A stretch of 49,157 nt of DNA from assembly GCA_018816945.1 (NCBI GenBank), contig JAHIVC010000064.1:1-49157 (forward strand), given 5' to 3'. The position numbers and the translations under genes are program-made. Under the pieces are notes generated by a model. That model had not been told where the DNA came from and ran no database searches. It saw nothing but the letters and a program-made list of their open reading frames with translations. Shown here one piece after another: positions 25,654 through 47,981 of this stretch (the first letter of the stretch is position 1; every line of letters begins with the position of its first letter). Source of the DNA: Bacteroidota bacterium (GTDB taxonomy: Bacteria; Bacteroidota; Bacteroidia; Bacteroidales; GCA-2711565).

Positions 25654-25727
25654 GGTCGCATAGCTCAGTTGGATAGAGCAACAGCCTTCTAAGCTGTGGG
25701 TCGAAGGTTCGAATCCTTCTGCGATCA
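25654..25727 (+). tRNA. tRNA-Arg (anticodon TCT)
   Basis: A full cloverleaf can be folded. The acceptor stem is GGTCGCA/TGCGATC with one G-T pair; the D-stem is GCTC/GAGC. The anticodon stem is ACAGC/GCTGT with loop CTTCTAA, giving anticodon TCT that reads AGA. The T-stem is GAAGG/CCTTC with loop TTCGAAT, and A is the discriminator base. CCA is not encoded. A good promoter precedes it, and an integrase gene begins 233 bases downstream, so its 3' end is the probable insertion site of the element to the right. Confidence 0.96.
25701..25727 (+). other. Probable attachment site (attL core) at the tRNA-Arg 3' end
   Basis: Tyrosine-recombinase islands usually recombine within the T-arm and acceptor end of a tRNA and rebuild it on insertion. 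Here the integrase lies just downstream, in the same direction, and cargo genes follow. I found no second copy of this 27-base segment in the window, so the other end (attR) must lie beyond 49157 if this reading is right. Confidence 0.45.
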
Positions 25728-25734
25728 CTTGAGT

Positions 25735-25825
25735 GTATAGAATAAAAACGCAAAGCCCTGTAAATCACAAAACTACAGGTCTTTTTTGTTTTCAGCCTTC
25801 TGCGTTTTTACCCCCTTTTCTATAC
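25735..25825. repeat. Long imperfect inverted repeat between tRNA-Arg and the integrase gene
   Basis: The left arm 25735-25752 (GTATAGAATAAAAACGCA) is the reverse complement of the right arm 25801-25825, apart from a seven-base insertion, CCCCCTT, in the right arm. The terminator hairpin at 25757-25790 lies in the loop. It could be an integrase or accessory-protein binding region of the attachment site, or an extended transcriptional barrier. Confidence 0.6.
25757..25790 (+). terminator. Intrinsic terminator downstream of tRNA-Arg
   Basis: Stem CCTGTA/TACAGG (25757-25762 and 25774-25779), loop AATCACAAAAC, followed by TCTTTTTTG. It would end the tRNA transcript before the element's genes. 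Confidence 0.7.
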
Positions 25826-25832
25826 CTTGCTG

Positions 25833-25878
25833 TTGGACTTACTATTGGACTTGAAATTTTTCAAAAAAGTCCAATAGT
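25833..25878. repeat. Direct and inverted repeats upstream of the integrase gene
   Basis: TTGGACTT occurs twice in direct orientation (25833-25840 and 25845-25852). A perfect 12-bp inverted repeat (ACTATTGGACTT at 25841-25852, complement at 25867-25878) surrounds a 14-base loop. The set sits 83 bases before the integrase start. It fits arm-type binding sites for the integrase or excisionase, or an operator; no experiment supports either. Confidence 0.55.
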
Positions 25879-25960
25879 GATACACCTTAGATGCTGATAA
25901 TCATTGCTTTATTTTGCTTGAACTTTCTAAATTAAGTTAAACATTTAAACAATTTCTGTC

Positions 25961-29015: not shown

Positions 29016-29280
29016 AAAAGCGTTGGCCCGGAAGAACGGCGGGGATTAGGTATGGCCTTGCGCGTAGAAGCATCGTTCTTCCTTGATTTTTTGCTTCGTT
29101 TTGTATCAAGACAAAATGAAGATTAGAATCTACCATTAATTAACAAAAAGTAAACATGGCAACCTTACCTGAATTTATATCAGGATTTCTTTCCTGCCCG
29201 CCCTGTTTGGTCTCACTATGGCAGGCGGGTGGACAAGCAAAAGAAACGTAGCGAAGCGAATTTCGGCATAGCCAAATGAA
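29016..29280. repeat. Structured repeat element, copy 1
   Basis: Shares two blocks with 29778-29943: a 5' block of about 70 bases beginning AAAAGCGTTGGCC, and a 3' block of 49 bases (29232-29280) with one mismatch. The 5' block folds into a 9-bp stem (29030-29038 with 29074-29082) around a 35-base loop containing GGCGGGGATTAGGTA. A second hairpin follows (29094-29104 with 29111-29121). A third palindrome (CCCGCC ... GGCGGG, about 29198-29229) looks inserted. The frame starting ATG at 29158 runs only about 25 codons and may be a gene remnant. It fills most of the 407-base gap between the HTH gene and the next ORF. It may be a non-coding RNA, a MITE or a REP-like element. Confidence 0.7.
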
Positions 29281-29322
29281 CGAATAAATCGAACACTTTT
29301 TATTGCTTAAACATTATACAAC

Positions 29323-29415
29323 ATGAAACGAGCATGTTCGTTGAACGCAAACAAGGATGAAAATCTCATATGCGAGTTCCATCCGACCTATTTTATTAAA
29401 ATTATTTACGGATGA
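29323..29415 (+). CDS. Possible 30-residue peptide, coupled to the next gene
   Basis: An ATG-started frame of 30 codons (begins MKRACSLNANKDENLICEFH) whose TGA overlaps the ATG of the next gene as ATGA (29412-29415). The coupling pattern matches other joints of this element. The composition is not obviously repeat-derived. No family is recognised. Confidence 0.3.
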   Translation: MKRACSLNANKDENLICEFHPTYFIKIIYG

Positions 29416-29645
29416 AAAAACAAGATAATATCAATAAGCTTAGAACAAAACTAGCCTACTTCAAAATCCTATACCGGATATTTTGTTTTCACAATTTCCA
29501 ATTAAAATTGATAGACCTGATCCTTCGTGTTTATGACAAAAAAGATGCTTTTCTCGATACCGAAATCAGCTCTAACGAACTTATCATCAATTCACTCCAT
29601 CAGGACATCAGGCATCTAAAGAAAAAACTGAAGGTCAATGGCTAA
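29412..29645 (+). CDS. Small hypothetical protein of the replication module
   Basis: A 77-residue basic protein I do not recognise. It looks all-helical, with an N-terminal Lys-rich stretch, a central 'ILYRIFCFHNFQLKLIDLILRV' amphipathic helix and a basic C-terminus (RHLKKKLKVNG). Its stop overlaps the ATG of the truncated duplicate of the replication gene at 29638, so originally it was probably co-translated with an intact replication protein. That position suggests an accessory replication or regulatory role, by inference only. Confidence 0.5.
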   Translation: MKKQDNINKLRTKLAYFKILYRIFCFHNFQLKLIDLILRVYDKKDAFLDTEISSNELIINSLHQDIRHLKKKLKVNG

Positions 29646-29793
29646 ACTCGATGAACCAAAATACGGTGCTTACTATTCAAAAAGAATCATTGAAGAACTG
29701 GGTATCGACGACCACTTGAATAGCATCTGGCTTTATGGTTTCTTGAACCGTAAATATCAGGATCAAATATTTTCTAAAAAAGCGTTGGCCTGA
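29638..29793 (+). pseudogene. Truncated duplicate of the replication protein gene (N-terminus only)
   Basis: The 51-codon frame (MAKLDEPKYGAYYSKRIIEE ... ) is clearly homologous to the first about 48 residues of the 805-residue protein at 29976. Both share Y-G-x-Y-Y-x-K-R-I-I-x-E-L-x-I-D-D and, further on, NSIWLYGF and NRKY. Homology stops at the exact point where structured repeat copy 2 begins (29778), and a TGA in the repeat ends the frame. It is a remnant cut off by the repeat, or created when a second replication gene was joined downstream of it. Confidence 0.8.
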
Positions 29794-29943
29794 AAAAACG
29801 GCGGGGATTAGGTAGGCTTGTGTGGTGGGAGCTTCGTTTTTTCTGTCTTTTTCTTTGGTTCGTTGATACTTGCCCCGAGCATGGTCGAGGGGTTGACAAG
29901 CAAAAGAAACGTAGCGAAGCGAAGTTCGGCATAGCCAAATGAA
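29778..29943. repeat. Structured repeat element, copy 2
   Basis: Same element as 29016-29280 but shorter. The 9-bp stem (29792-29800 with 29835-29843) differs from copy 1 by two compensatory pair changes, G-C to A-T in both cases, while much of the loop (GCGGGGATTAGGTA) is kept. The 3' block 29895-29943 has one mismatch to copy 1. A different palindrome (CCCCGAGC ... GGTCGAGGGG, about 29873-29892) sits where copy 1 carries its own. It abuts the truncated gene on the left and ends 32 bases before the intact replication gene. Confidence 0.72.
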
Positions 29944-29975
29944 TAAAAAAACATTGATAAACCACCATCAAATAA

Positions 29976-32393
29976 ATGAGCAAAACAAAAAACACATATG
30001 GCCATTACTACACAAAACGCATAATCAAAGAACTGGCTATTGATGACAGTCAAAATAGCATCTGGCTTTATGGTTTTATGAACCGTAAATACACACAAAA
30101 TATCTTCTCTGAAGATGAGCATGGCAACATTCGGATATTGGTTTACTCATTGCATCGTCATCCAATACAGTATGATCACAACAAGGCGACGCCTTTTAAA
30201 CCAAACATCAATAACAATCGCGAACAAACCTATTATATCACAAGGCTCAAGGATCCGGTTGCTGATAAAGACGGGAAAGTAAAAAAGTACCACATCCCAA
30301 AAGGAGCCGGTACTTTTCCTTTTTTCCCTCCCCTGCTGCTCGAAAAGTTTGAAAACAAAACCCCGATTAAAACCCTGGTGCTGACCGAAGGTTTCTTTAA
30401 AGCCTTCAAAGGTTGTATGCATGACATGGATGTGGTCGGATTATCTTCAATTACGCACTATCGTGATAAAAAAACCAAAACTTTGCATCCAGAAATATTA
30501 GAACTGATCACAGAATGTAAAGTTGAAAATGTCATTATTCTATACGATGGTGATTGCCTTGATATTTCTGCAAAAGCCCTTGAAAACCACGACGACCTCT
30601 ACAAACGCCCCGGCGGTTTCTATTCTTCAGCTCATAACATTCAGGAGTTGCTAAAAGATTACGATTTAAACATCTATTTCTCCCATATAATAAGCGATTG
30701 CCACCCCGAACACCCAAAAGGTCTGGACGACATCATGATCGCTTTTAAGGCAGAAGAATGGAAACTGGCCAAAGATTTATCTTTATTCAGCAAACCCGGA
30801 AAGTATTTTTTCAAACTTAACATATCGCATTCAACGCATAAATTGCGAAAATACTTTCACATCAATTCCCCTGAAGAATTCTATACCTTCCACGCTGAGT
30901 TCATAAAAGATCAAAAATTTGTTTACAATGGAACTCAATACAATTGGGATGAGGAAGCCGGAAAACTGAATGTCATCATACCGGCAGCAGCGCGCGACTA
31001 TTTTAGGGTAGGCGATTCATATTACGAATTTGTGGAGGTCCCAAATAAATTCCATAACCTCGAGCGTAGATTCGAACGACGCCTAAAAGGAACCATTATC
31101 GACGACCACAGCAAAAGCTTTTTAGATCATGTACCTAAATATAAATCCTTTTGCAATGTCCCCGATCACAATAACTTTCACCAGGTCACCAGCAATTGCT
31201 TTAACATCTATGCACCATTCGATCACGAGCCCGAAGAAGGGAATTGCGAATTGACATTGGATTTTATCCGGCACATCTTTGGTGAACAATTAAATCTAGG
31301 TCTTGATTACATTCAACTGTTATTTCAAAAGCCAACGCAGATCCTTCCAATACTTTGTTTAGTATCAAAGGAAAATCACACGGGTAAAACCACTTTTGCC
31401 AAATTCCTCAAAGAGATTTTTACCCAAAATGTGACCGTAGTTGGCAATGATGAACTTTCTGCCAGTTTCAATACTACTTATGCAAATAAACTCATTATTA
31501 TTTCCGAAGAAACATTCCTGGATAAAAAGCAGATCATTGAGAAAATCAAGGCGCTATCTACTGCCGATAAAATTTTGATGAATGCAAAGGGAAAGGACCA
31601 CATTGAAATTGATTTCTTTGGCAAGTTCATACTTCTATCCAACAATGAGGATAATTTCATTTATGCCTCTAAAAACGATATTCGTTATTGGGTCCGTAAA
31701 ATCCCAATTCCTGAAAAAGTAAATGTTGACATACTCGAAGATCTCAAATTCGAAATACCGGCCTTTCTCGATTACCTCAACAAACGCAAATTAAGCACCG
31801 GGCATGAAAGCCGTATGTGGTTTCATCCCGATTTGTTAAAAACCGATGCCTTAAAAATCATTCAGGAAAACAGTCAGCCCTGGGCCGAACAGGAAATAAA
31901 ATCCCGCATCACCGAATTACTCTACGACACCGGTGAAGATCATATCATGATGTCTGCTTCAATCATCAATAAAGAATTCTTTAAAGGCCGTTATAATGAA
32001 AACTATATCAGCAAAATTGTAAAAGAAAATCTGGGCATCGACAACATAAAAAATGAAGATGGTCAATATTTGGTGAGAGTTTATAAATACCCTCATCCCT
32101 ATCAAACCTGGGATGAAGGCGAACCGGTTGAAAAGATGAATTATATAAAACACCGTGGCCGCCCATTCCAATTCAAACGCGAACTCTTCATCAACCCCGA
32201 AGAAGAAAAAAATATTCAATACATCCCCGATCCCGATGTCACAACGAGCTGTTCATTGAGCGCCTGCCCTGAGCGTAGTCGAAGGGAAGTCGAAACGAAG
32301 TCGAGTGTCACATCGAGCTGTTCATCGAGCGGAGCCGAGATGAAGTCGAGATGCCTTCACGAACCCAATCACCAGGAAGACCTCCCATTCTGA
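29976..32393 (+). CDS. Replication protein: TOPRIM-like primase region plus SF3-type helicase
   Basis: An 805-residue protein. Residues about 110-250 contain a TOPRIM-like pattern (TLVLTEGFFKAFKG with the acidic Glu; VIILYDGDCLD; HPKGLDD). Residues about 440-600 form an SF3/DUF5906-like ATPase with Walker A 'ENHTGKTTFAKF', Walker B 'KLIIISEE' and a sensor 'KFILLSNNEDN'. It resembles primase-helicases that replicate Bacteroidota mobile elements after excision. The extreme C-terminus (QEDLPF) looks like the acidic tip of single-strand DNA-binding protein. Just before that tip, about 40 residues come from dispersed palindromes (ACPERSRR). It starts 32 bases after structured repeat copy 2. Confidence 0.82.
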   Translation: MSKTKNTYGHYYTKRIIKELAIDDSQNSIWLYGFMNRKYTQNIFSEDEHGNIRILVYSLHRHPIQYDHNKATPFKPNINNNREQTYYITRLKDPVADKDGKVKKYHIPKGAGTFPFFPPLLLEKFENKTPIKTLVLTEGFFKAFKGCMHDMDVVGLSSITHYRDKKTKTLHPEILELITECKVENVIILYDGDCLDISAKALENHDDLYKRPGGFYSSAHNIQELLKDYDLNIYFSHIISDCHPEHPKGLDDIMIAFKAEEWKLAKDLSLFSKPGKYFFKLNISHSTHKLRKYFHINSPEEFYTFHAEFIKDQKFVYNGTQYNWDEEAGKLNVIIPAAARDYFRVGDSYYEFVEVPNKFHNLERRFERRLKGTIIDDHSKSFLDHVPKYKSFCNVPDHNNFHQVTSNCFNIYAPFDHEPEEGNCELTLDFIRHIFGEQLNLGLDYIQLLFQKPTQILPILCLVSKENHTGKTTFAKFLKEIFTQNVTVVGNDELSASFNTTYANKLIIISEETFLDKKQIIEKIKALSTADKILMNAKGKDHIEIDFFGKFILLSNNEDNFIYASKNDIRYWVRKIPIPEKVNVDILEDLKFEIPAFLDYLNKRKLSTGHESRMWFHPDLLKTDALKIIQENSQPWAEQEIKSRITELLYDTGEDHIMMSASIINKEFFKGRYNENYISKIVKENLGIDNIKNEDGQYLVRVYKYPHPYQTWDEGEPVEKMNYIKHRGRPFQFKRELFINPEEEKNIQYIPDPDVTTSCSLSACPERSRREVETKSSVTSSCSSSGAEMKSRCLHEPNHQEDLPF
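32250..32360. repeat. Palindromic repeats inserted in frame at the 3' end of the replication gene
   Basis: A block of GC-rich short palindromes: GCCTGCCCTGAGCGTAGTC-type sequence, GTCGAAACGAAGTCGAG, and the 27-base unit also found at 28609-28635. All three are read through in frame and give the SACPERSRR-like peptide. The DNA is unlike its AT-rich surroundings. The reading frame is kept, and the original C-terminus reappears after it. Confidence 0.75.
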
Positions 32394-32572: not shown

Positions 32573-33595
32573 ATGTCTAACAATCATTTGCTTGAAACAG
32601 CATACGAAGAGGAATTCTATTTCCAGTGGCATATAACAAATGAATGCAATCTGCGTTGTAAACACTGTTATCATGATAATTATCTTGATGATTCCTTAAA
32701 ATTGGATCAATTAATAAAAATTGGGAATCATTTATGTGATGCAGCAAAAAAATGGGGTAAGAAAGCATCATTTAGTCTTACCGGAGGAGAACCATTTACT
32801 AATCCGGAAAATCTATTCGCAATACTTGAACTCCTAGAAACACGTAATGTCGACAGGATTGACATCCTTACCAATGGATTTTTAATAGATGAAGAAATTA
32901 TTAATAGGCTCAAAAAATTTAAAAAACTTAGGAGGATTCAGCTTTCACTTGAAGGGCTGAAAGAAACAAATGATAGGATACGTGGTGATGGTTCTTTTGA
33001 CAAAACGATTAAAATTATAAAACTATTAAAAGATCATTCATTCACAATAAGTATAATGATGACCATTGGGAAGCATAATAAAGATGAAGTAATTCCCCTT
33101 GCAAAAGAACTTAAAGTTTTAAATGTTGATACATTTATTCTTGACCGTTTTATCCCCGAAGGCCAAAGCCAGAATAAGAAAGACTGGTTGTTATCACCTG
33201 AAGAAATTAAAAATGTATATTCAGAAGCATATAATTATTTTCAAAATTGTTTAAAACCTCGCTTCTTACTTTATAGAACGTTATTTTGTCTTTTAAATCC
33301 TGATGATCCCCATATTGGTGCAATCTGTTCTGTAGGTAATAATGCAGTGACAATTATGCCAAATGGTGATGTTTTGCCCTGTAGAAGACTACCTATTAAA
33401 ATTGGAAACTTATTAGAAGAAACAATTTATAAAATTTGGTATACCTCTCCTTTACTTTGGGAAATGAGAAATCCTAAAAACTTAAAGGGTAAATGTAATA
33501 ATTGTGAACATATTCCTATTTGTAGGGGGTGCAGAGCAATGGCATATGCAATAACGGATGATTATTTTGAAACCGATCCTCAATGTTGGAAATAA
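32573..33595 (+). CDS. Radical SAM/SPASM peptide maturase
   Basis: A 340-residue radical SAM enzyme. The SAM-cluster cysteines are Cys25, Cys29 and Cys32 (ECNLRCKHC), and SLTGGEPF follows. The C-terminal SPASM domain is complete: Cys252-x12-Gly-x4-Cys270, then Cys308-x2-Cys311-x5-Cys317-x2-Cys320, and Cys338, enough for two auxiliary iron-sulfur clusters. SPASM enzymes of this size (PqqE, sactipeptide and ranthipeptide synthases) form C-C or thioether bonds in ribosomal peptides. The next genes are a PqqD-like protein and a small Cys-rich peptide, so thioether formation on those cysteines is the leading hypothesis. It is the first gene of the cluster. Confidence 0.92.
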   Translation: MSNNHLLETAYEEEFYFQWHITNECNLRCKHCYHDNYLDDSLKLDQLIKIGNHLCDAAKKWGKKASFSLTGGEPFTNPENLFAILELLETRNVDRIDILTNGFLIDEEIINRLKKFKKLRRIQLSLEGLKETNDRIRGDGSFDKTIKIIKLLKDHSFTISIMMTIGKHNKDEVIPLAKELKVLNVDTFILDRFIPEGQSQNKKDWLLSPEEIKNVYSEAYNYFQNCLKPRFLLYRTLFCLLNPDDPHIGAICSVGNNAVTIMPNGDVLPCRRLPIKIGNLLEETIYKIWYTSPLLWEMRNPKNLKGKCNNCEHIPICRGCRAMAYAITDDYFETDPQCWK

Positions 33596-33597
33596 AA

Positions 33598-33903
33598 ATG
33601 AAAAAATATATCCTTGTCGAAAACATTATCCTTAAATTTGATGAAGTATCAAATAGATATTACGCTTTCTGTATTTCAACTGGTGATCATTTTATTTTAA
33701 CCAAAAGTGGATATTTTATTTTAGAGTTCCTTGAGATGGGCAAAGATATTAATGAAATTATTAGCTTTGTTCATAAAAATGAAAATATTGACCTTGACAC
33801 ATGCAAAAGAGACACATTAAATTTTATTAATAAATCTGAAAAAATTGGTATAATTTCTATTCTTAAAGAGGAGCAAAAAAATGATAAAAAAGAGCACAAT
33901 TAA
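33598..33903 (+). CDS. PqqD-like RiPP recognition element (RRE) protein
   Basis: A 101-residue PqqD-like protein. 'ILKFDEVSNRYYAFCISTGDHFILTKSGYFILEFL' is the three-strand/first-helix part of the RRE fold, and 'INEIISFVHKN' plus the following helices form the winged-helix rest. RRE proteins bind leader peptides and present them to the modifying enzyme. It starts 2 bases after the radical SAM stop; an ATG at 33583 overlapping that stop is an alternative. Its 3' end overlaps the start of the precursor gene by 23 bases. The tight order maturase-RRE-precursor supports a PqqE/PqqD-like division of labour. Confidence 0.85.
   Translation: MKKYILVENIILKFDEVSNRYYAFCISTGDHFILTKSGYFILEFLEMGKDINEIISFVHKNENIDLDTCKRDTLNFINKSEKIGIISILKEEQKNDKKEHN
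33868..33873 (+). promoter_or_regulatory. Strong Shine-Dalgarno sequence of the precursor gene
   Basis: GAGGAG lies 7 bases before the ATG at 33881. Most genes here have no visible Shine-Dalgarno sequence, as usual in Bacteroidota, so this one supports the small gene and suggests high translation of the precursor peptide. Confidence 0.6.
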
Positions 33904-34039
33904 AGGACAATCGGTACAGAGCTACACAAAACCCGATATTACTAAGGTTGACAAAATGACTTTTATGTTTGAACCTTATAAAAGTAGTTACTCAAAAGTT
34001 GCATGCAGGCAATGTTCTTCTTGCCATGGATGCAGATAA
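33881..34039 (+). CDS. Probable RiPP precursor peptide with CX2CX2CX2C core
   Basis: A 52-codon gene. The leader (residues 1-40) carries Tyr15-x-x-Pro18-x-Ile20, close to the YxxPxL motif that RRE domains bind in lasso and related leaders. The C-terminus is a short Cys-rich core, ACRQCSSCHGCR, with Cys42, Cys45, Cys48 and Cys51 at exact three-residue spacing. A GAGGAG ribosome site precedes it. Its start overlaps the RRE gene by 23 bases, and its end overlaps the next gene by 14. There is no signal peptide. The maturase beside it suggests thioether or C-C crosslinks at the cysteines. The spacing differs from the CXXX-repeat peptides known in Bacteroides. A tRNA-like or random Cys stretch is unlikely given the coupling and leader motif. 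Confidence 0.85.
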   Translation: MIKKSTIKGQSVQSYTKPDITKVDKMTFMFEPYKSSYSKVACRQCSSCHGCR

Positions 34040-34865
34040 TAACAATAAGCTAAATAAATTAAAAGATTCATTAGAAGCTATTTTAATTGATTATCTGGAA
34101 AGGAAATTGCCTTTAAGAAGGATTGTTTTTCTCTCATCAATTTTAAAAATGGCCTCGCACGAATTAGATTCATTCAAAAAAGTCACTAAACGAATTATTA
34201 CCGAACAAAAAACTGACGGTGGCTGGGTTGATTGCGAAGATACCGCCTGGAACATATTTTTTCTCTCCTCACAAGATAATTATTCTGTTAATAGATCAAA
34301 AGCTATTGAATGGCTTAATAGTGAACGTCCTTCAAAATTTGGATGGGGTTTTTGCAAACGCGATTACTCAAACATACCAATTACATCTCAGGTATTACTT
34401 TTAGTTCCTGAGTTAAGAAATCTCCCAGAGTTCAAATGGATATTTAATGAATGGAATAAAGATATTAACTCACCAATTAATTTGAACTATAAAGGAGCTT
34501 GGTACTTACTTTTAATGAGCACTCAGAATTTATCTCTTGATTATGAAGCATTCAATATAAAACAAACAGAAGCATATCTTATTCAGGAGCAAAGAGATGA
34601 TGGAGGTTGGGGTCCATGGAAAAATCATCCAGCTATCTCAGATCCTTTTATTACTGGTTTATGTAGTTTAGCCCTTTCAAATTCATTTAAAATTACTCAC
34701 ACAAAAGAAATTCTAGTCAGTTTATATAAGAGCATTAAATGGTTTGAAAGTAATCAGCTTGAAAATGGATTATTCCCAACACATTATATTGAAGAAGGAT
34801 CTGCATGGTGTTACTTTGGTTGGCAAATGGCATTAAATACTGTATATGAAGGATATTCATCGTAA
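34026..34865 (+). CDS. Terpene-cyclase/prenyltransferase-like alpha-toroid protein
   Basis: A 279-residue protein with squalene-cyclase/prenyltransferase-type repeats: QKTDGGW (61-67), QRDDGGWG (189-196) and NQLENGLFP (243-251). These Q..DGGW elements cap the helices of an alpha/alpha toroid. Residues 69-74 read DCEDTA, resembling the DxDDTA general-acid motif of class II terpene cyclases, but with Glu in the key middle position. The length is about half a full squalene-hopene cyclase, so it may be a single barrel. In this cluster it could modify or bind the peptide or a lipid. The ATG at 34026 is chosen because the earlier ATG at 33969 lies inside the precursor gene. It overlaps the next gene by 20 bases. 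Confidence 0.75.
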   Translation: MDADNNNKLNKLKDSLEAILIDYLERKLPLRRIVFLSSILKMASHELDSFKKVTKRIITEQKTDGGWVDCEDTAWNIFFLSSQDNYSVNRSKAIEWLNSERPSKFGWGFCKRDYSNIPITSQVLLLVPELRNLPEFKWIFNEWNKDINSPINLNYKGAWYLLLMSTQNLSLDYEAFNIKQTEAYLIQEQRDDGGWGPWKNHPAISDPFITGLCSLALSNSFKITHTKEILVSLYKSIKWFESNQLENGLFPTHYIEEGSAWCYFGWQMALNTVYEGYSS

Positions 34866-35949
34866 AAATGTTTTGTTAATCGGGAAATATCCTCCCATGC
34901 AAGGTGGTATTGCTGCCAAAACATTTTGGTTATACAAGAGATTAGCCAAAAATGGGTATAATTTTCGCGTTGTCACTATTGAGATTGAAAATTATTCTGT
35001 GCCGGTAATTAAGGACGACATAAAGGTTTTCTCAGTCGACAAAGCATCCACACCATGGCATATACCCGACTCAAGCCTTTATTTTGACAGAATACTGAAC
35101 AAATGTTTTGAAGCTCTGGCTAATTTTACACCTGATATAATTGAAACAAATTATTTATGGCCATTTTGCAGTGTTGCAATTCACTTATCAAAAATATTAA
35201 ACAAACCTCTTCTTATAAGACATGCTGGTAGTGATATTTTAAAATTCTACACATCCAATGAATTCAGAGATATTATAAAAAGATATTTTGAGCAAGCCTC
35301 TATAATTGTTACAAATAATACCAGTATCGAGATTGTAAGTGAATTATGCAATGATAAAACAAAAATCAGATTAACAGACAGGTATATACCTGATCCTGAT
35401 TATTTTCACGATCTGAAACACCCGAAACAATACGATATTTTATTCGCTGGAAAAATCAATTACTATTGGAAACATAAAGGGATCAGTTATCTTCTTGAAT
35501 ATATTAAGGCTTATAATCTTCATGCCCTTTTATTGTGTGATGGTAATTACATAGATGAAATTTATTCTCTCGTTGATAAGCAGAAATTGGAAAATAATAT
35601 TGAAATAAAAAAATTCGTGCATCCCTATGAAATGCCAGCAATAATTAACAAGTCCAATACTGTATGGTGTTGGGATGAAGAAGGTAGTATTGATGATTTT
35701 TCAAATATTATTTGGGAAGCTTGTTATTGCAATGTTGAATGTCTAATAAATGAGAAAATAGAAAAAACTACAGACTTAAAAAAAATGAAAGAACTTTTTT
35801 CTGAGAATCTTTTGGAGTTCAAGAAAGTAGAATCAATGAGTTATTTTAACAATGAAATTAGTTTTAGTAATTCAATAAATCTTGAGGCGATAATAAAAGA
35901 GTTCAAATTATATATTGATCAGAATGTTTCAATATATAATAATATTTAA
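34846..35949 (+). CDS. GT4-like glycosyltransferase
   Basis: A 367-residue GT-B fold glycosyltransferase. The N-terminal Rossmann start 'VLLIGKYPPMQGGIAAKTFWL' is typical of GT4 enzymes, with Gly-Gly in the acceptor loop. 'LLIRHAGSDIL' (about residues 122-132) and 'DILFAGKINYYWKHKGISYLLEYI' (about 199-222) mark the second domain start. The donor-binding region is near 'NIIWEACYCNVECLI' (about 287-301), where Glu binds the nucleotide-sugar ribose. The substrate is unknown. It overlaps the toroid gene by 20 bases, so it belongs to the same operon. It may glycosylate the modified peptide, a Ser/Thr/Cys side chain, or a carrier. Confidence 0.85.
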   Translation: MKDIHRKNVLLIGKYPPMQGGIAAKTFWLYKRLAKNGYNFRVVTIEIENYSVPVIKDDIKVFSVDKASTPWHIPDSSLYFDRILNKCFEALANFTPDIIETNYLWPFCSVAIHLSKILNKPLLIRHAGSDILKFYTSNEFRDIIKRYFEQASIIVTNNTSIEIVSELCNDKTKIRLTDRYIPDPDYFHDLKHPKQYDILFAGKINYYWKHKGISYLLEYIKAYNLHALLLCDGNYIDEIYSLVDKQKLENNIEIKKFVHPYEMPAIINKSNTVWCWDEEGSIDDFSNIIWEACYCNVECLINEKIEKTTDLKKMKELFSENLLEFKKVESMSYFNNEISFSNSINLEAIIKEFKLYIDQNVSIYNNI

Positions 35950-36125
35950 ACCCATTTACTTGAAATGCAACTAGTATTAGCATAAAAATGATGATGAATA
36001 TGAACTCGTGTAAGTCTATAAAGACAATGATTTAACAGAGGTTACGGGTCAAGTATTGCAAGTTTGCAGACAGAATAGCGAAAAATGAATTTGAATAACT
36101 ATATTATAAAAATGAAAATATTCTA

Positions 36126-37820
36126 ATGTGTGGCATATGTGGTATATATGGTAAAAGAAGTCCTAATAAGGTCAAATTAATGGCCGATGCTATAAAACAC
36201 AGAGGACCAGACGGGGAATCTTTTGCTAATTTCCCATGGGGTTCTCTAGGTTTTCGCTGGCTTGATATTTTCGGACCGGAAACGAATCCACAACCTGCTG
36301 TTAACAATAAAAAGAATATTTCAATATTGTTTAATGGTGAAATCTATAATTTTAATGAACTCGTTCCACTAATACAGCCTAAGAAAATAGTTGACGAAGC
36401 TAATCTCATACTTGAATTATATCTTATATTTGGAGAAAAGGTCTTTGAAAAGCTTAAAGGAATGTTCGCTATTGCAATATTGAGTCCCGAAAAGCTGATT
36501 CTTGCTCGTGATTCATTTGGAATAAAACCGTTAGTATATTTCCAAAAAGGTTCAGAAATATATTTTGCTTCCGAAATAAAAGCACTATTAAGAGTTCACG
36601 AAAATGCAATTGAAATAAACAAAGATTCTCTTGCAGAAACTGCAGTTTTTGGATTTATATTTAACTTGGGAGAAACTATGTTTAAGGGAATAAAACAAGT
36701 GCTGCCTGGTTCATATATAGTATTTGAAGATGGTTTGTCAAAAACAGTAAAATACAATAATAATCCCAATTCGTTTTATAATCCTAATTCGGTCATTGAT
36801 AAAAAAACGATTTCACATTTTTCTGAATTAATGAACAGTACCGCTAAATTGCATCTCTCACATTCAAAGCACGACCATGCATTATATCTATCAGGTGGCC
36901 TTGATTCAAGTTTGATGGCTTATTATTTGCAGAATAATTCAAGTAATAATATTCATTCATATACTTTGTTCGACGATTTAAATAATGAAGATCGTTTATT
37001 TGCAAATAAAGTAGCTTCAGAAATTGGCACAATTCATACTGAAATTGAAACTGGATTTGATGAAACCCTGAATCTCTTGAAGCATTATCTTTATCATTAT
37101 GAGTCTCTTGTAACCAATGGTTTGTATGATGTTCTGGGAAGTGTTGCGTTTCATATTTTATCTGCAAAAATTGCAAAAAAACACAAAGTTGCATATTGTG
37201 GTGAGGGTGCTGATGAACTCTTTGGTGGTTATTACTGGTTACATGCACATCCGTTAGGTGTAGGGGATAGATTAAGAGCAAAATCGTTTAAAGTAAATAA
37301 TGGAAGTACACAAATTCATGATTACATCATGCAGCATTTTCCTGACGATGATACTAAGAAACTGGAAATGCAAAAAGAGATTTTTGATTTTCTTAATGGC
37401 CCCGGTCTTACTAATTGCCATCTTTGGAGCGTTGATAGGTCAAGTTCTGCTTTTTCTTTCGAAGCACGTCCTTTCTATTTGTACAACGATATTGCTGAGT
37501 GGGCTTTAACTTTCTCAATTAATAATAAAGTCACTGAAAGCAAGGAAACTAAATTAATCATGAAACAATACGCTTCATCAAGACTTAGTCCTTTGTTTCA
37601 GGATATTTCAAAAAGAAAAAAAATAGCAATGTCAGCAGCTTTAAATAACTCATTGAGGATGCTTATTGAACATTCAACTAGGAGATTTCAATCATCGAAT
37701 AAGAAAGATTTACCACATTATGACTTCTCAACTTATCTTAATACAGATCTTGATAAATTTATGTTTGACAACTTTTATAAAATGTTTGTTATTAATAGGG
37801 GGGATTTTTCAATAGATTAA
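36126..37820 (+). CDS. Asparagine-synthetase-like amidotransferase
   Basis: A 564-residue AsnB homologue. The N-terminal class II glutaminase has the nucleophile Cys2 (MCGICGIYG), 'HRGPDGE' and 'FNGEIYNF', so ammonia release from glutamine should work. The synthetase domain has the PP-loop SGGLDSS (256-262) and 'CGEGADELFGGY'. Housekeeping AsnB makes asparagine; in RiPP and glycan clusters such proteins amidate carboxylates, and in lasso systems they close the macrolactam, often with a dead glutaminase. The intact Cys2 here favours amidation. It lies 176 bases after the glycosyltransferase and ends the cluster in the same direction. A free-standing asparagine synthetase cannot be excluded. 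Confidence 0.85.
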   Translation: MCGICGIYGKRSPNKVKLMADAIKHRGPDGESFANFPWGSLGFRWLDIFGPETNPQPAVNNKKNISILFNGEIYNFNELVPLIQPKKIVDEANLILELYLIFGEKVFEKLKGMFAIAILSPEKLILARDSFGIKPLVYFQKGSEIYFASEIKALLRVHENAIEINKDSLAETAVFGFIFNLGETMFKGIKQVLPGSYIVFEDGLSKTVKYNNNPNSFYNPNSVIDKKTISHFSELMNSTAKLHLSHSKHDHALYLSGGLDSSLMAYYLQNNSSNNIHSYTLFDDLNNEDRLFANKVASEIGTIHTEIETGFDETLNLLKHYLYHYESLVTNGLYDVLGSVAFHILSAKIAKKHKVAYCGEGADELFGGYYWLHAHPLGVGDRLRAKSFKVNNGSTQIHDYIMQHFPDDDTKKLEMQKEIFDFLNGPGLTNCHLWSVDRSSSAFSFEARPFYLYNDIAEWALTFSINNKVTESKETKLIMKQYASSRLSPLFQDISKRKKIAMSAALNNSLRMLIEHSTRRFQSSNKKDLPHYDFSTYLNTDLDKFMFDNFYKMFVINRGDFSID

Positions 37821-37942: not shown

Positions 37943-39949
37943 ATGAATAGAATTGAAAAATATACAACAGAAGTTATGCTAAATTGGCTGACTGAACATT
38001 TTAAATATAGAGGTTATGATACAGAGCATTATTCAGAGCGTTTTCTGCCAGCCAGAGTTCCACTATATTGCAGAATGGAAGGTAATCTTGAATGGTCCAA
38101 GATTCCAGGTATCGGAAATGCTAAATTAAAGGAATTTCTAAGTAAGATCCCGGATTCTAATTGGATAGAAAATGCTACTATTAACAAATCTGATGATGGT
38201 AATAGCATTAATGTTACTTATGAGCAAAACAGTATTATAGTCTCTCTTAAAGACAAAAGATTATTTATCAAAAAAAACCAATTAAATCTATATGAATTTG
38301 TTGTGGAGGAGGAGGGTGATGAAATTGATTTTTATGATGAGATAGTTGTTGAAATAACAACAGATAAGTATATATTAAAAGATGACTTTTTCCCTTTACT
38401 AGCAATAGGTAGAAAAAAAATTCCTGAAGCCTCACCTGTGAGATTTTACAAACACTATTTCCCGAAAGCAAGAATATATTATTCCTTTCCACAATATGTC
38501 GAAGAAAATGATGGATTTAAAGAATTTAAGGAAGTTTGCCTTGAAAGAGGTATAGGCTTACTTAAAACATCAGAAACAAAAATTGAAGAAGTGTGTAAAT
38601 CTGTCTCGTTGTTTGATGAGATATGTAGTAATCTTTATGAAAAAAAGAATTCTCGAAAAAGTATTGAAACAATTATTGGAAATTATTTTGAAGATAATCT
38701 AGATCAGCTTGTTTTCTACCCTGAACCAGATTATAAAAGAAGAGCCATAGTCAGAAGATTAACGGAGGATAATCGAATTAGTTTACTGTTGTTAAAAAAA
38801 CTACAAAACCCCAAAAATATTCAATACAAAGACAAACTTAAGAAATTAACATCTGACTATTTATTAAAAGAAACTAGAGATGATTTCAATATCGCATCTG
38901 AATATGTTAAGGAACTATGGACTGAATATCTTGGAATGGAATATCCAAATCCAGATATTCAAATAAAATTTGAAGAAATCTTTCAAAAAGATAAAGGTTA
39001 TAGAGAACATTTCGTCCATCAATTTCAGGTGTTCTTATTAGGATCATATATTATTGATAAATTATATGAATCAAGAAATGAAATCTTAGAATCATTTAAA
39101 AAATCATATGGAGTTCCAATAGAAATTGGTTGGTTAGCTGCTTCAACTTATCATGATTTTAACTATAGTACACAAAAATATCAGACTTGGCTTATTGAAT
39201 ACTTGACAGAAGTGTTGAGGTTTGAAAATGAAGAAGTAAAAGGGGAACTAAGCAAGTTGAATCTTGATACGGCAATTGTTCGAGAAAGTTTTCTTTTAAC
39301 TTCAGAAAAACTAATTAATATTATCTGTAAAAAATATATTGAAGTAAATAGCTCAATAAAGCAAAAGATCAATTTATTTCTTTATGAAACAATAGTAAGA
39401 AAAAAGAATCATGGGCTTCTGAGTAGTTTAACATTGATGAAAATATTTAATACTACGAAGAATAGAAAATTAATTTCTGAGAAAGGAATTGAACAAGCAG
39501 CCTTGGCTATTGCTTTGCACGATGAAAAAATGTGGGAATTCTTTTGTGGATGTAAAGGGTACTTACTTGAAGAAAAAAATTGCGAAAAAGGATGTTCCAT
39601 AAAACACAATTGCTCCCCTTGGGATAAAGATCTTATGGAATGTGGAATATTAAGAACAATTAGCTTTGAAACCGATCCTTTAATATACCTACTAATCCTA
39701 TGTGACTCTGTTCAAGATGAAGGAAGAGTTGAAGAGCAATCAGAATTTATTAAATCTCATATAAAGGACGTAGAAGTTACTATTGATAAAAAAGTTGTAA
39801 TCACCTTAGTTTCTGGTGATTCTAATTCTCACAGAATTAAACAAACAGAATTTAGCAGGGTTGAACAATTTCTCGATGATGGAGGTTTTGAAATAGTGCT
39901 CAAACCAAATAAACCAAGTTATGGTAAGGAGAAAAAAATTATTTTTTAA
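37943..39949 (+). CDS. HD-type phosphohydrolase-like protein with Cys cluster
   Basis: A 668-residue protein without a named family that I can recognise. The C-terminal half has an HD-like pattern: His356 and His359 (REHFVHQF), His404-Asp405 (STYHDFNY), His526-Asp527 (LHDEKMW) and Asp588 (CDSVQDEGR). That is consistent with a metal phosphohydrolase acting on nucleotides. Six cysteines between about residues 532 and 568 (FFCGC; CEKGCSIKHNC; MECG) may bind a metal. The N-terminal 250 residues are beta-rich and unfamiliar. There is no signal peptide. It lies between the RiPP-like cluster and the restriction genes; which unit it belongs to is open, but large HD proteins in such islands often serve anti-phage roles. 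Confidence 0.6.
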   Translation: MNRIEKYTTEVMLNWLTEHFKYRGYDTEHYSERFLPARVPLYCRMEGNLEWSKIPGIGNAKLKEFLSKIPDSNWIENATINKSDDGNSINVTYEQNSIIVSLKDKRLFIKKNQLNLYEFVVEEEGDEIDFYDEIVVEITTDKYILKDDFFPLLAIGRKKIPEASPVRFYKHYFPKARIYYSFPQYVEENDGFKEFKEVCLERGIGLLKTSETKIEEVCKSVSLFDEICSNLYEKKNSRKSIETIIGNYFEDNLDQLVFYPEPDYKRRAIVRRLTEDNRISLLLLKKLQNPKNIQYKDKLKKLTSDYLLKETRDDFNIASEYVKELWTEYLGMEYPNPDIQIKFEEIFQKDKGYREHFVHQFQVFLLGSYIIDKLYESRNEILESFKKSYGVPIEIGWLAASTYHDFNYSTQKYQTWLIEYLTEVLRFENEEVKGELSKLNLDTAIVRESFLLTSEKLINIICKKYIEVNSSIKQKINLFLYETIVRKKNHGLLSSLTLMKIFNTTKNRKLISEKGIEQAALAIALHDEKMWEFFCGCKGYLLEEKNCEKGCSIKHNCSPWDKDLMECGILRTISFETDPLIYLLILCDSVQDEGRVEEQSEFIKSHIKDVEVTIDKKVVITLVSGDSNSHRIKQTEFSRVEQFLDDGGFEIVLKPNKPSYGKEKKIIF

Positions 39950-41087: not shown

Positions 41088-42821
41088 ATGCCAACAATAT
41101 TTGATAACATTGATGCAGTACTAGCAGATGATCTAAGGGAAACCTTAGCCAAATCATACCGATCTGATTTTTGTGTTGGATATTTCAATTTAAGGGGTTG
41201 GAAAAACGTTTCAGCTTTTATTGATAAATATACAGGCAAAGATGAAAACTATTGCCGTTTAATTGTTGGTATGCAACGTTCTTCCGAAGACCTATTAAAA
41301 CAAATTTTGTCTAACCAAAAACCAGGGCTTGTTGACCAAGCGCAAGTTGTTGCTCTAAAGAAACGTATGGCAAAGGAGTTCAGAGATCAACTAATGTTTG
41401 GTATTCCTAAAGCTGGTGATGAAATAACTTTAAGGCAGCTCTCAACTCAATTAAAAAATCAAAAAGTTAAAGTTAAACTCTATTTGAGTCATCCACTTCA
41501 CGCAAAACTTTATTTAGGATTTAGGTATGATAAAAAGGCACCAACTATCGGATATGTTGGAAGCAGCAATCTTACAATGGCCGGTCTTGAAAAGCAAGGA
41601 GAATTAAATGTTGATGTTATTGAGCAAGATGCTGCAAAGAAGTTGGCAGATTGGTTCGAGGACCGTTGGAACGATAGATTTGCAATTGAAATTTCAGCCG
41701 AGCTAATTGAAATTATTGATGAAAGCTGGGCGGGAGAAAAGATCATTTTACCATATTATATATATCTTAAAATAGCCTATCACTTATCTCAAGAGGCTCA
41801 AACAGGTGAAGATACTTATGAAATTCCAAAAGAATTTGAACATCTTTTAACATTCCAAAAAAAAGCAGTAACCTTAGCTGCTCAGCATTTAAAAAACAGA
41901 AATGGTGTAATCATTGGGGATGTAGTTGGCCTTGGTAAAACCATGACAGCTTCTGCTTTAGCAAAACTTTTTGAAGAAACTTTTATTTTAGAAACATTAA
42001 TAATTTGTCCTAAGAACCTTGTTGAAATGTGGAAAGACTATAAACACAATTATAGGCTGCGGGCAGATGTCGTTAGTATCTCTAGGATAAACGAAGCATG
42101 GCTTGAAAGAGAAAGGAGATATCGACTGATAATAATCGATGAAAGTCATAATTTGAGGAATAAGGAGGGTAAACGCTACGGTTTGTTAAAGGATTACATC
42201 AACAGGAATGAACCTAAAGTGATCATGTTAACAGCCACCCCCTACAATAAAACTTATTTCGATCTTTCCAATCAGTTACGCCTTTTTGTCCCAGAAGACT
42301 TAGATTTAGGGATTGGCCCAGAGCGTTACCTTGAGTCAATTGGAGGCCAGCATGAATATGTGGCTGAACACCAAACAAGCCCATTTAGTATTGCAGCTTT
42401 CGAGAAAAGCAACTTTTCAGACGACTGGCGTGATTTACTCAAAATGTTCATGGTAAGAAGAACTCGTTCTTTTATCCGTGATAATTATGCTGAAACAGAC
42501 CTATCTAATAATAGAAAATATTTAACATTTGATGATGGAAGTAAATTTTATTTTCCTGAGCGGATTCCTAAAAAAATTGAATATGATTTCAATGCAGATG
42601 ACAAAGAAGATATTTATGCCAGGTTATTTTCACCAAATATTGTTAATACAATAAATAAAATGTCATTACCAAGGTATGGGCTTGGAAATTATATTGATGA
42701 ATCAGAATTACCAAATGCATCTAGTTCAGAACAAACTCAACTTGAAAATCTAACGCGAGCTGGAAAAAGATTGATGGGATTTTGCCGCACTAATTTATTT
42801 AAAAGACTTGAAAGCTGCTGA
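41088..42821 (+). CDS. PLD-type nuclease/SNF2 helicase, N-terminal part (gene broken by in-frame TGA)
   Basis: A 577-residue frame. An N-terminal phospholipase-D-type nuclease half-site is visible: His138-x-Lys140 (LHAKLYLG), then GSSN with Asn161. An SF2/SNF2-like ATPase follows: Walker A GDVVGLGKT (277-285), DESH (351-354) and LTATP (381-385). The frame ends at TGA (42819-42821) in the middle of the helicase. The same frame continues with a fitting sequence (YSFLLSLARH...) into the next feature, so the full protein would have been about 1108 residues, ending at 44414. Together with the methyltransferase at 44418 it looks like the nuclease-translocase of a restriction-modification-like defence system. 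A truncated product would lack the second RecA lobe. Confidence 0.85.
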   Translation: MPTIFDNIDAVLADDLRETLAKSYRSDFCVGYFNLRGWKNVSAFIDKYTGKDENYCRLIVGMQRSSEDLLKQILSNQKPGLVDQAQVVALKKRMAKEFRDQLMFGIPKAGDEITLRQLSTQLKNQKVKVKLYLSHPLHAKLYLGFRYDKKAPTIGYVGSSNLTMAGLEKQGELNVDVIEQDAAKKLADWFEDRWNDRFAIEISAELIEIIDESWAGEKIILPYYIYLKIAYHLSQEAQTGEDTYEIPKEFEHLLTFQKKAVTLAAQHLKNRNGVIIGDVVGLGKTMTASALAKLFEETFILETLIICPKNLVEMWKDYKHNYRLRADVVSISRINEAWLERERRYRLIIIDESHNLRNKEGKRYGLLKDYINRNEPKVIMLTATPYNKTYFDLSNQLRLFVPEDLDLGIGPERYLESIGGQHEYVAEHQTSPFSIAAFEKSNFSDDWRDLLKMFMVRRTRSFIRDNYAETDLSNNRKYLTFDDGSKFYFPERIPKKIEYDFNADDKEDIYARLFSPNIVNTINKMSLPRYGLGNYIDESELPNASSSEQTQLENLTRAGKRLMGFCRTNLFKRLESC

Positions 42822-42854: not shown

Positions 42855-44414
42855 ATGCGTAATTATGTTTATGTATATGCCATCGAAAACAATCTTACAC
42901 TCCCTATTGGATCTCAAGAAACCCAATTAATGGATGAGTTTATTGAAGAACATGACGAGGATCTTGACGAATTGGGATTGATTAGAATTCACAACGATAT
43001 AGACGAATATAAGAATGGAGCTGCTAATATTTATAAAATAATGGCAGCACATCCCCGAAAATATAAATGGATTGCATCAAAGTTCTTTAAATCATCTTTG
43101 AAAATTAAATTGAAAAAAGATGCTCAACTCATCATGGACATTTTAGAAAAGGGAAAAGACTGGGATGCAACAATGGATAAACAAATTGATTCATTCGAAC
43201 ATCTATGTAAAATTGAACATAAAGGAGAAAAGATTTTACTGTTCACTCAGTTCGCTGACACTGCAAGATATCTTGAAAAGGAGCTTAGAAGACGTGGATT
43301 AAAAGATTTATTATGTGTAACAGGAAACACAGAAAACCCAACCGAAGCAGCTCATCGTTTTAGTCCAAAAAGCAATGAATCGAAACTTAAAAAAGATGAG
43401 GTGAGGGTGTTGATTACAACAGATGTTTTAAGTGAAGGTCAAAATCTTCAGGATGCACATATCATTGTGAATTTTGACCTTCCCTGGGCTTTGATTCGCT
43501 TAATTCAAAGAGCGGGTCGTGTGGATCGAATTGGTCAACAATCCGAAGTGATTTATTGTTATTCCTTCCTTCCAACTGATGGGGTTGAAAATATCATCAG
43601 ATTACGTCATAGGTTACAACAAAGAATTAAAGAAAATTCAGAGGTTGTTGGTTCAGACGAAGTATTTTTTGATGGTGATCCAGTGAATATTCGTGATTTA
43701 TATAATGAAAAAGCTGGCATTTTAGATGAGGATGATTCAGATGATGATGTAGATTTAACCTCAAAGGCATTTGAAATTTGGAATCAAGCCACTAAAGCAA
43801 ATCCTGAGTTACGAAAAACAATTATTAATCTACCCAATGTAATTTATTCCACAAAACCCAAGCCTGATGAAGCAATACATAACGGCGTAATTACTTACCA
43901 CAAAACAGCAGCAGGTACAGATGTATTAACATGGTTGGATGAACATAAAAACATTCGTTCGAGAAGTCAAAATAGGATTTTAAAAATACTGGAGTGCTCA
44001 CTGGATACTCCTGCTCTTGAAAAATTAGAAGATCACCACTTGTTAGTAGCACGAGCTGTAGAAATTGCTCAACAAGCGCAAAAATCTACAGGTGGTCATC
44101 TTGGTAAAAAAAGCAGTGTTCGATACAAAACCTACATGCGTTTACATCGATATTATGAAGAAAGCAAAAATACCTTGTTCGAAAACGATAATTTGAAAAA
44201 GGCTATCGATGACATTTATAAATATCCAATGCAGGAAAGCAGCAAAACCTTATTAAACAGAAGACTGCGTTTGGGCATTTCTGAACAGGACTTATCTCAA
44301 GTAGCAATCATATTAAGAAATGAAGGACGACTTTGTATCATCGACGACCATAATTCATCACAGTTAAATGCACCACAGGTGATATGTTCTATGGGTTTAA
44401 AAGAAGAAATTTAG
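42855..44414 (+). pseudogene. SNF2 helicase C-terminal part, separated by the nonsense codon
   Basis: The 519-residue frame is in the same reading frame as the upstream part (offset 1767 bases, a multiple of 3) and supplies the second RecA lobe of the helicase. 'KILLFTQFADTARYLEKEL' is motif IV, 'VLITTDVLSEGQNLQDA' is motif V and 'LIRLIQRAGRVDRIGQQ' is motif VI with its arginine fingers. An independent start at the ATG 42855 is unlikely to be natural, as the codons between the TGA and this ATG also read as protein. Either the gene is inactivated, the two halves are made separately, or the TGA is a sequence error. It ends 3 bases before the methyltransferase ATG, so both belong to one operon. 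Confidence 0.75.
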
Positions 44415-47907: not shown

Positions 47908-47981
47908 CGGACTGAAGATACTATCTCCAGCGATGTTTGTGCTACAAATATAATACAATTAAAACTAATAATGCAAGAAAT

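Follow-up and report, generated by a model that had tools for sequence, protein, structure and literature searches.

Genes of the cassette

The stretch of DNA analyzed here (the window; 49,157 nucleotides (nt), contig JAHIVC010000064.1 of a Bacteroidota bacterium) carries a gene cassette of the kind that makes ribosomally synthesized and post-translationally modified peptides (RiPPs), and the cassette genes form a genuine system, because the same genes recur together in other genomes beyond what chance would give. The integrase type and DUF4249/CarbopepD_reg_2 proteins likewise make a Bacteroidota host most likely. Six of these genes, all on the + strand and at the coordinates that a first-pass annotation of this DNA had reported, encode in order a radical S-adenosylmethionine (SAM)/SPASM peptide maturase, a PqqD-like stand-alone RiPP recognition element (RRE), a precursor peptide, an alpha/alpha toroid protein, a divergent GT4-like glycosyltransferase (GT) and an AsnB-type enzyme (Table 1). 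The first five had been described as tightly packed, and overlaps of 13, 23, 11 and 20 nt were found at all four of their junctions, with the toroid start placed at the first ATG of an open reading frame (ORF) listed from 33969. Gaps of 176 nt precede the AsnB gene and 122 nt separate it from a seventh gene, which was overlooked when the set was taken to end at 37820, and homologues of which occur in two other cassettes, either internally or as the last gene.

Conserved residues were inspected in alignments. In nine aligned cassette maturases the CNLRCKHC cluster motif and the SPASM-domain cysteines C252, C270, C308, C311, C317, C320 and C338 are invariant, and the window AsnB retains its C2 nucleophile and SGGLDSS loop. 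For the GT, whose E-x7-E motif was positioned by eye, E291 of that region is invariant in five sequences and the first glutamate is replaced by aspartate in the window.

Table 1. Cassette genes and neighboring features of the window, with profile scores (Pfam unless another source is named)
Feature	Position	Strand	Length	Remarks
Radical SAM/SPASM peptide maturase	32573-33595	+	340 aa	Radical_SAM 90.9 bits, SPASM 40.6 bits
PqqD-like stand-alone RRE	33583-33903	+	106 aa	PF05402 25.3 bits, cut-off 23.4
Precursor peptide	33881-34039	+	52 aa	YTKP in leader; C-terminal core CRQCSSCHGCR (C-x2-C-x2-C-x2-C); no family match
Alpha/alpha toroid protein	34029-34865	+	278 aa	SQHop_cyclase_C 26.6 bits, cut-off 26.1
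GT4-like glycosyltransferase, divergent	34846-35949	+	367 aa	GT4 models weak, below cut-off (E about 0.002)
AsnB-type glutamine-dependent amidotransferase/synthetase	36126-37820	+	564 aa	Asn_synthase 115.1 bits, GATase_7 90.6 bits
Seventh gene	37943-39949	+	668 aa	HD-hydrolase-like residue pattern; homologues in two other cassettes
tRNA-Arg (TCT), probable attachment site	25654-25728	+		ARAGORN
Tyrosine integrase	25961-27181	+		Arm-DNA-bind_5, Phage_int_SAM_5, Phage_integrase
Primase-type/DUF5906 protein of element	29976-32393	+		PF19263 66.6 bits
HKD/Snf2-type protein	41088-42821	+		Outside cassette; PADLOC 88 bits
Helicase C-terminal ORF	42855-44414	+		Outside cassette; PADLOC 85 bits
Type IIG restriction-methyltransferase	44418-47882	+		Outside cassette; PADLOC 930 bits
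NYN-domain protein	47937-48596			Downstream of cassette

Recurrence in two forms

Maturase relatives were collected by a pattern scan over 84,980 genomes. The query was an alignment of the window maturase with a same-phylum relative that is 37-38% identical to it. The scan yielded at least 525 relatives among the stretches examined, the best 80 were retained, and the six window proteins were compared with each locus by tblastn. As single queries, the window maturase gave zero relatives in the genome scan and the window toroid gave zero matches in 148 other related genomes, plasmids and viral contigs. Among the nine closest of the best 80 maturase loci (L024-L032, 41-53% identity) the toroid was found in seven, the contigs of the other two stopping 577 and 147 bases past the maturase match, and among the next 71 it was found in one, L046, a degraded or chimeric contig that was left out of the complete-cassette count. 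Genome searches added L114, in which maturase, toroid, GT and AsnB are 64, 47, 47 and 59% identical to the window proteins, as well as L135 and L108. L108 lies on another contig of the L025 genome and was taken to complete the L025 cassette. The conserved neighborhood that the first-pass annotation had named as its own check was found in this way, the same gene set recurring in other genomes; the maturases of cassette-bearing relatives are 64, 53, 52, 49, 49 and 46% identical to that of the window.

The cassettes fall into two forms. Form A holds the maturase, PqqD-like protein, precursor, toroid, AsnB and GT, with shifts of order and insertions after the precursor, and its members are the window, L024 (Desulfobacterales), L025 with L108, L026, L028 (Candidatus Methanoperedens), L114 and L135; the hosts of the relatives are Deltaproteobacteria-type genomes and the Methanoperedens archaeon. 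The cassette is complete in the window, L024, L025 with L108, L028, L114 and L135, and an AsnB homologue is present in all six of these and also in L026, whose contig ends inside it. L027 and L127 have the maturase only, their contigs ending there. Form B consists of the maturase, a PqqD-like ORF, the precursor, an amidohydrolase-GNAT fusion, the toroid and a radical SAM protein of the B12 type, which is cut in L113. In L029, L030 and L104 this last protein and the fusion were scored with Pfam/NCBIfam, and in the other loci both were assigned by eye. Form B members are the Firmicutes loci L029 (Roseburia), L031 (Ruminococcus) and L032 (Blautia), together with L030 (Hydrogenedens), L113 and L104 (a 133-kb IMG/VR contig). 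AsnB and GT gave no tblastn match in form B loci; five of the six (L029, L031, L032, L104 and L113) encode an AsnRS/AsnA-like protein (tRNA-synt_2, 132 bits in L029, 134 in L104 and 95 in L113), which was not seen in L030. Aspartyl adenylates are formed by AsnB as well as by AsnRS-type enzymes, and this exchange therefore suggests that the two forms share a single acyl-adenylate/amide step, which is directly testable.

In 13/13 cassettes in which the interval from maturase to precursor is covered, this interval contains an alignable PqqD-like ORF; tblastn with the window protein detects it in only some of them. The arrangement by which a RiPP cassette is generally recognized, a precursor beside a modifying enzyme and a recognition element, is conserved in the seven A and six B loci.

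Several relatives outside the cassettes were recorded. Two small YxIP...CxxCxxC peptides lie upstream of a form-B-like maturase that lacks the remaining cassette (L034 6797-7840). A 37%-identical maturase from the same phylum (L017 3251-4707) adjoins a membrane-like protein with the tail GGGGCGGCGGCGGG, possibly another CxxC-rich substrate. At L020 364-4603 a maturase relative is followed by a toroid-like protein (by eye; unscored by tblastn with the window toroid), and the opposite strand encodes several peptides with VSGG motifs and cysteine-containing tails; judging by this locus, maturase-toroid pairs may also occur in other RiPP families.

Conservation of the precursor peptide

The window precursor matched five bacterial A-type loci by tblastn at E 4e-7 to 3e-11 and the archaeal locus at 3e-4. 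YxxP is present in 12/12 aligned precursors and M-x-F in 11/12 (V-E-F in L104), and the peptides of the seven A loci share the leader YxxP...MxF and the core CxQCSSCHxCx. The core reads CRQCSSCHGCR in the window, L024, L025 and L114, CKQCSSCHSCR in L026 and L135, and CVQCSSCHGCS in the archaeon; form B precursors end in WCFGCTNC[NS]C[NS]. Codon differences in the 15 pairs of six A cores (L135 left out) were synonymous in 83 cases and non-synonymous in 19, and this synonymous excess means that selection has conserved the peptide and not the DNA.

With regard to leader recognition, several groups of RREs, including PqqD, are listed with W/Y/LxxP/L/I motifs in PMC12710340. Both a PF05402-type domain and a leader motif of this form are present in the cassette, as would be expected of a PqqD-like RRE and its substrate.

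Toroid protein

The predicted toroid model (pLDDT 89) resembles MstE with a TM-score of 0.70 (query-normalized) and a Foldseek E value of 1e-5, a profile search returned squalene-hopene cyclase at E 1e-18, and weaker matches were to thioester domains of the alpha-2-macroglobulin/complement family by both structure and profile. Class II terpene cyclases (MstE, squalene-hopene cyclase, drimenyl-diphosphate synthase) have the same alpha/alpha barrel fold as the model, and the toroid differs from them at the place of the DxDD motif. The position of that motif in the toroids was assigned by eye; seven toroids read there DCEDT (window), DVEET, DPEET, GVVDT (archaeon), GNTDT (Roseburia form), SIVDT and GNTDT, so that it is not conserved and protonation-type cyclization is, on these sequences, unlikely as the common activity of the toroids. 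The protein is more likely a holder of the peptide or of an intermediate, or an enzyme of a different activity. Lipid modification by the toroid, which the first-pass annotation had allowed for, was rejected: the fold is compatible with it but the DxDD place is not.

Seventh gene and exchangeable metal-dependent partners

Homologues of the seventh protein were found in two other cassettes, at L028 7519-9297 (30% identity, E 5e-52), between AsnB and GT of the Methanoperedens cassette, and at L108 7277-9013 (34% identity, E 3e-85), the last gene of its cassette and placed directly after the GT gene and a small P-loop-like gene. The seventh protein matched no family in Pfam or NCBIfam. In a five-sequence alignment that includes the distant relatives L118 and L119, H356, H359, H404-D405, H490, H526 and D588 are invariant, as are the YRxHFxHQ, H490-G491 and C587-D588 stretches, and the order H...HD...H...H...D is what we take to be the ligand order of HD hydrolases. 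A profile of the protein found nothing in the L024 genome, and the protein had no match in plasmids nor, as an alignment, in viral contigs.

Other A cassettes carry other metal enzymes, and the partner is exchanged from locus to locus. HD-like proteins are found in the window, L028 and L108, proteins of the metallo-beta-lactamase (MBL) fold in L024, L026 and L135 (about 1,050-1,180 aa) and, as two ORFs, in L108, which therefore holds both MBL-fold and HD-like partners; L114 has a PHP protein and an HD/HD_assoc (dGTPase-like HD) protein, and L135 has, besides the MBL protein, an adenosine deaminase (A_deaminase 195 bits). MBL, PHP, HD and adenosine deaminase families are metal enzymes. The closest known counterparts are HD-superfamily phosphohydrolases and the dGTPase, adenosine-deaminase and MBL effectors of anti-phage systems, the sister cassettes having HD/HD_assoc, A_deaminase and Lactamase_B families; the seventh protein shows an HD-like residue pattern and no detectable profile similarity to known HD families. 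We know of no earlier case in which a metal hydrolase is linked to a RiPP cassette.

Two further occurrences concern parts of the seventh protein. In L118 (5149-7922) a response-regulator receiver domain precedes the HD-like domain, and a histidine-kinase-type protein is encoded alongside. Residues 51-136, an N-terminal insert missing from both cassette homologues, are 30% identical (E 3e-11, two-protein comparison) to L109 4832-5095, which lies inside a Cas3-like helicase (by eye) of the Methanoperedens genome.

Probable mobile element, distribution and maturase phylogeny

Carriage by a mobile element had been called probable, and this is supported by a tRNA-Arg gene adjoining an integrase gene (25654-25728 and 25961-27181), the element beginning at the tRNA. 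A single further copy of 24 bases from the tRNA-Arg 3' end is present in the genome (C87:49383-49406), at a place without a tRNA according to ARAGORN; judged by sequence, the two are probably the attachment sites of the element, with C87 as the far site, on contigs that are unjoined. The sequence TTGGACTTACTATTGGACTT was also found near both the tRNA-Arg/integrase region (25654-27181) and C87:49383-49406. The start region of the primase-type gene (29016-30091) is partly duplicated, the repeats being 96, 71 and 37 nt long and 77-92% identical, which leaves a short ORF at 29638-29793.

In sets of related genomes the toroid was present in 1/149, 3/96, 1/199, 1/194 and 2/195 (center genomes counted), and the cassette is rare, patchy and horizontally moving across unrelated bacteria and an archaeon. 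Over 5,641 bases L031 (Ruminococcus) and L032 (Blautia) share 99.6% identity, a sign of recent transfer or of misbinned metagenome contigs. A maturase-like stretch was present in 43 viral contigs, one of which gave a good match (the L104/L139 contig, 39% over 326 residues), the others being at most 34% identical to the maturase and mostly part-length. Form B was seen beside conjugation- and recombinase-type genes and also on a virus-catalogued contig.

A maturase tree was built from 97 sequences, with L046 and L077 left out as too short, L135 not included, and L122 and L127 being one locus. The window and L114 are sisters (support 100/100), form A minus the archaeon makes a clade of eight rows (100/94), and form B makes one of seven (100/97) that includes L034, which has no toroid match. 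All of these fall in a 27-row clade (100/99) that further includes eleven rows (Omnitrophota, Atribacterota and other groups) without a toroid match by tblastn. The cassette label requires four changes on this tree and does not form one clade, and therefore gains or losses beyond a single origin are required.

Defense genes near form A cassettes

Complete flanking ORFs of at least 150 aa within 8 kb of ten A loci and 16 control loci were compared with PADLOC families at E<=1e-15, the controls being 16 of the 21 loci L033-L053, among them L034, whose maturase lies in the form B clade. The A-locus flanks (41 proteins) matched 80 PADLOC families and the control flanks (144 proteins) nine, these being counts of families and not of proteins, with generic helicase and ABC matches inflating both sides. 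The top A-flank matches were type IIG (4e-280), type III methyltransferase (2e-157), BrxC (1e-133), HEC-09 (2e-93), AbiEi (4e-76) and HEC-01A, and the top control-flank matches were dGTPase (3e-76) and then one at 4e-33. Type IIG could be placed in the window, type III in L127, BrxC in L027 and HEC-01A in L026; for HEC-09 and AbiEi the pooled counts do not assign a locus. Some of the relatives accordingly adjoin BREX, type III or AAA-type defense genes. A smaller PADLOC comparison, with flank genes chosen by eye, gave a match in 6/10 A-locus and 0/10 control proteins. The L114 flank has a type I restriction fragment (58 bits, PADLOC), and L024 has two antitoxin/toxin-like flank genes without a PADLOC match.

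Within the cassette itself, viperin (pVip) was considered as a defense assignment for the maturase and rejected: PADLOC gave 72 bits over residues 18-174 only, the radical SAM core, and the maturase has a SPASM domain, which viperin-type radical SAM enzymes lack.

Comparison with known systems

The maturase was scored against curated models, and the cut-off was reached by none of the 25 best. The nearest was that of ACGX (TIGR04340, acgA/acgM), in which a small precursor likewise adjoins a radical SAM/SPASM enzyme, but the score of 206 bits against a cut-off of 400 places the window maturase outside this family and the window precursor lacks ACG repeats. An ACGX locus on a Roseburia plasmid carries nitroreductase, 4Fe-4S, ADP-ribose hydrolase and Sir2 genes, with PqqD, toroid, GT and AsnB unlisted in a gene table that is incomplete by design. 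The mycofactocin pathway uses a maturase, a PqqD-like protein, a small precursor and a glycosyltransferase, and the window cassette follows the same logic; its maturase nevertheless scores 97.4 bits against the TIGR03962 cut-off of 265 and is no member, the cassette showed neither a creatininase-type peptidase nor an MftD-like gene, and AsnB and the toroid are extra. 

Lasso peptide systems share a PqqD-like leader binder (lasso-PqqD 21.7 bits, a weak match), a YxxP leader and an AsnB-family enzyme, but the window AsnB reaches 120 bits against the lasso cyclase cut-off of 525 and so lies outside that family, and the window differs in having a radical SAM maturase, a cysteine-rich core and no leader peptidase among the cassette ORFs. 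Sactipeptide and ranthipeptide systems (SkfB, AlbA and PapB types) resemble it in SPASM maturase and cysteine-rich core, and SkfB is the best solved-structure match of the maturase (E 1e-12); the accessory genes and hydrolase partners set the window apart, and among the 25 best models AlbA gave 85 bits against a cut-off of 850, with StsB and PapB far below theirs. 

The claim of a RiPP-like cassette with an undescribed enzyme set agrees with the literature searched, in which no description of the gene set was found; coverage of the gene-set, defense and mycofactocin topics was partial, which makes this a weak negative. The available parts of PMC10352776, PMC12710340, PMC7159879 and PMC10853773 make no mention of the cassette. 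A precedent for the idea of a modified peptide effector is one FtsH ternary system, in which a radical SAM enzyme is considered likely to modify a peptide effector (PMC7159879).

Proposed function and alternatives

The reading that we favor, at somewhat less than an even chance, is that of a horizontally moving RiPP-maturation cassette whose modified peptide stays in the cell and works with a metal hydrolase, conflict or defense being its most likely use. As homology and the leader motif suggest, the PqqD-like protein would bind the YxxP leader and present the precursor, the radical SAM/SPASM enzyme would crosslink or otherwise oxidize the C-x2-C-x2-C core, the GT4 enzyme would attach a sugar and AsnB form an amide, with the toroid as putative holder of the peptide or an intermediate, or as an enzyme; the predicted product is accordingly glycosylated, crosslinked and amidated. 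It would then act inside the cell with the linked metal-dependent hydrolase (HD-like in the window; MBL-fold, PHP, dGTPase-like HD or adenosine deaminase elsewhere), presumably as its ligand, sensor or cofactor. An intracellular role is proposed because no exporter or leader peptidase was seen inside any complete cassette, the remaining genome of each host not having been searched, and because the core is near-constant across domains of life. A conflict function is the leading guess because the metal hydrolases are exchangeable and defense genes adjoin part of the loci. The narrower proposal, a new intracellular conflict system of bacteria and archaea in which a conserved crosslinked, glycosylated and amidated peptide arms, gates or senses for an exchangeable metal-dependent nucleotide/nucleic-acid hydrolase, we consider possible but doubtful. 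The interpretation given by the first-pass annotation is partly supported, in its RiPP-like cassette and mobile carriage; the 668-aa seventh gene, the exchangeable hydrolases, the AsnB-less second form and the defense company had escaped it.

Several observations weigh against the favored reading. Strong PADLOC matches can be placed at four of the ten loci only (window, L026, L027 and L127), and L025, L028 and L108 adjoin ordinary genes, with no clear defense neighbor by eye. The HD-like call for the seventh protein was made from its residue pattern alone: its AlphaFold model has a pLDDT of 36, its profile had no relevant match among solved structures, and hhalign against the dGTPase-like HD protein of L114 returned nothing. 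The hydrolase slot is mixed, with an HD-like protein in 3/6 complete A loci, and some of the partners may be passengers. Finally, an ABC-transporter ATPase gene (L028 10803-11963, by eye) lies 251 bases past the archaeal GT gene and could be part of an exporter.

An alternative that we judge unlikely is that the product is a cofactor or electron carrier derived from the peptide, comparable to mycofactocin or pyrroloquinoline quinone, and serves the linked hydrolase or other enzymes of the cell. The shared logic of maturase, PqqD-like chaperone and small precursor, with a glycosyltransferase in mycofactocin as well, and a core near-invariant across distant groups, unlike that of a diversifying toxin, would suit a cofactor; rarity, patchiness and a mobile-element setting fit a metabolic cofactor poorly, no dehydrogenase-type partner was seen in the A form, and the maturase scores 97 bits where the mycofactocin cut-off is 265. 

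It is likewise improbable that the product is a secreted bacteriocin-like peptide, exported through a general or neighboring pump, with the metal hydrolase as immunity or resistance factor. Glycosylated and radical SAM-modified peptides are often antimicrobial, mobile carriage and partner swapping suit toxin/immunity cargo, the archaeal cassette is followed by the ABC-transporter ATPase gene noted above, and form B is found near genes of conjugation and recombinase type and on a contig catalogued as viral. Complete cassettes, however, showed neither an ABC exporter nor a leader peptidase, the core scarcely varies between the archaeon and several bacterial groups, and HD-, adenosine deaminase-, PHP- and MBL-type enzymes are unusual as immunity proteins. 

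Poorer still are the prospects of a unit made up of the six-gene set only, with the seventh gene and the other hydrolases as chance neighbors in an island. The limited occurrence of the HD-like protein (3/6 complete A loci, its profile finding nothing in the L024 genome) and the presence of the homologous domain without a cassette in L118 and L119 speak for it, but the HD-like gene lies inside the archaeal cassette between AsnB and GT and right behind the GT and P-loop-like genes in L108, where an MBL-fold partner is present too. That the core is instead a metal or Fe-S ligand (a metallopeptide or chelator) with uncrosslinked cysteines, its metal binding tuned by the enzymes in the service of the metal-dependent hydrolase, is very improbable: CRQCSSCHGCR (C-x2-C-x2-C-x2-C plus a histidine) resembles metal-binding loops and the partner families are metal enzymes, but a SPASM maturase with RRE and precursor normally alters residues and the cassettes showed no gene for metal transport.

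The RiPP-type cassette is defined by a testable signature that crosses domains of life: a maturase, a PqqD-like protein, a YxxP...CxQCSSCHxCx precursor, a toroid, and AsnB or, in most of form B, an AsnRS/AsnA-like enzyme. If the product is intracellular, this would be a rare RiPP serving as cofactor or effector and not as a secreted antibiotic. An architecture in which metal hydrolases are swapped while the peptide stays constant is unusual, and a peptide-controlled defense mechanism would be experimentally approachable through it.

Additional observations

An Indioceanicola plasmid (L130 3192-8914) carries three radical SAM genes and a PqqD gene that adjoin TIR and SIR2 genes. In the window, outside the element, a gene for a GNAT-histone-deacetylase fusion adjoins one for a lysine 2,3-aminomutase-type protein (8923-11936), possibly for N-acetyl-beta-lysine metabolism with an unusual fused deacetylase.

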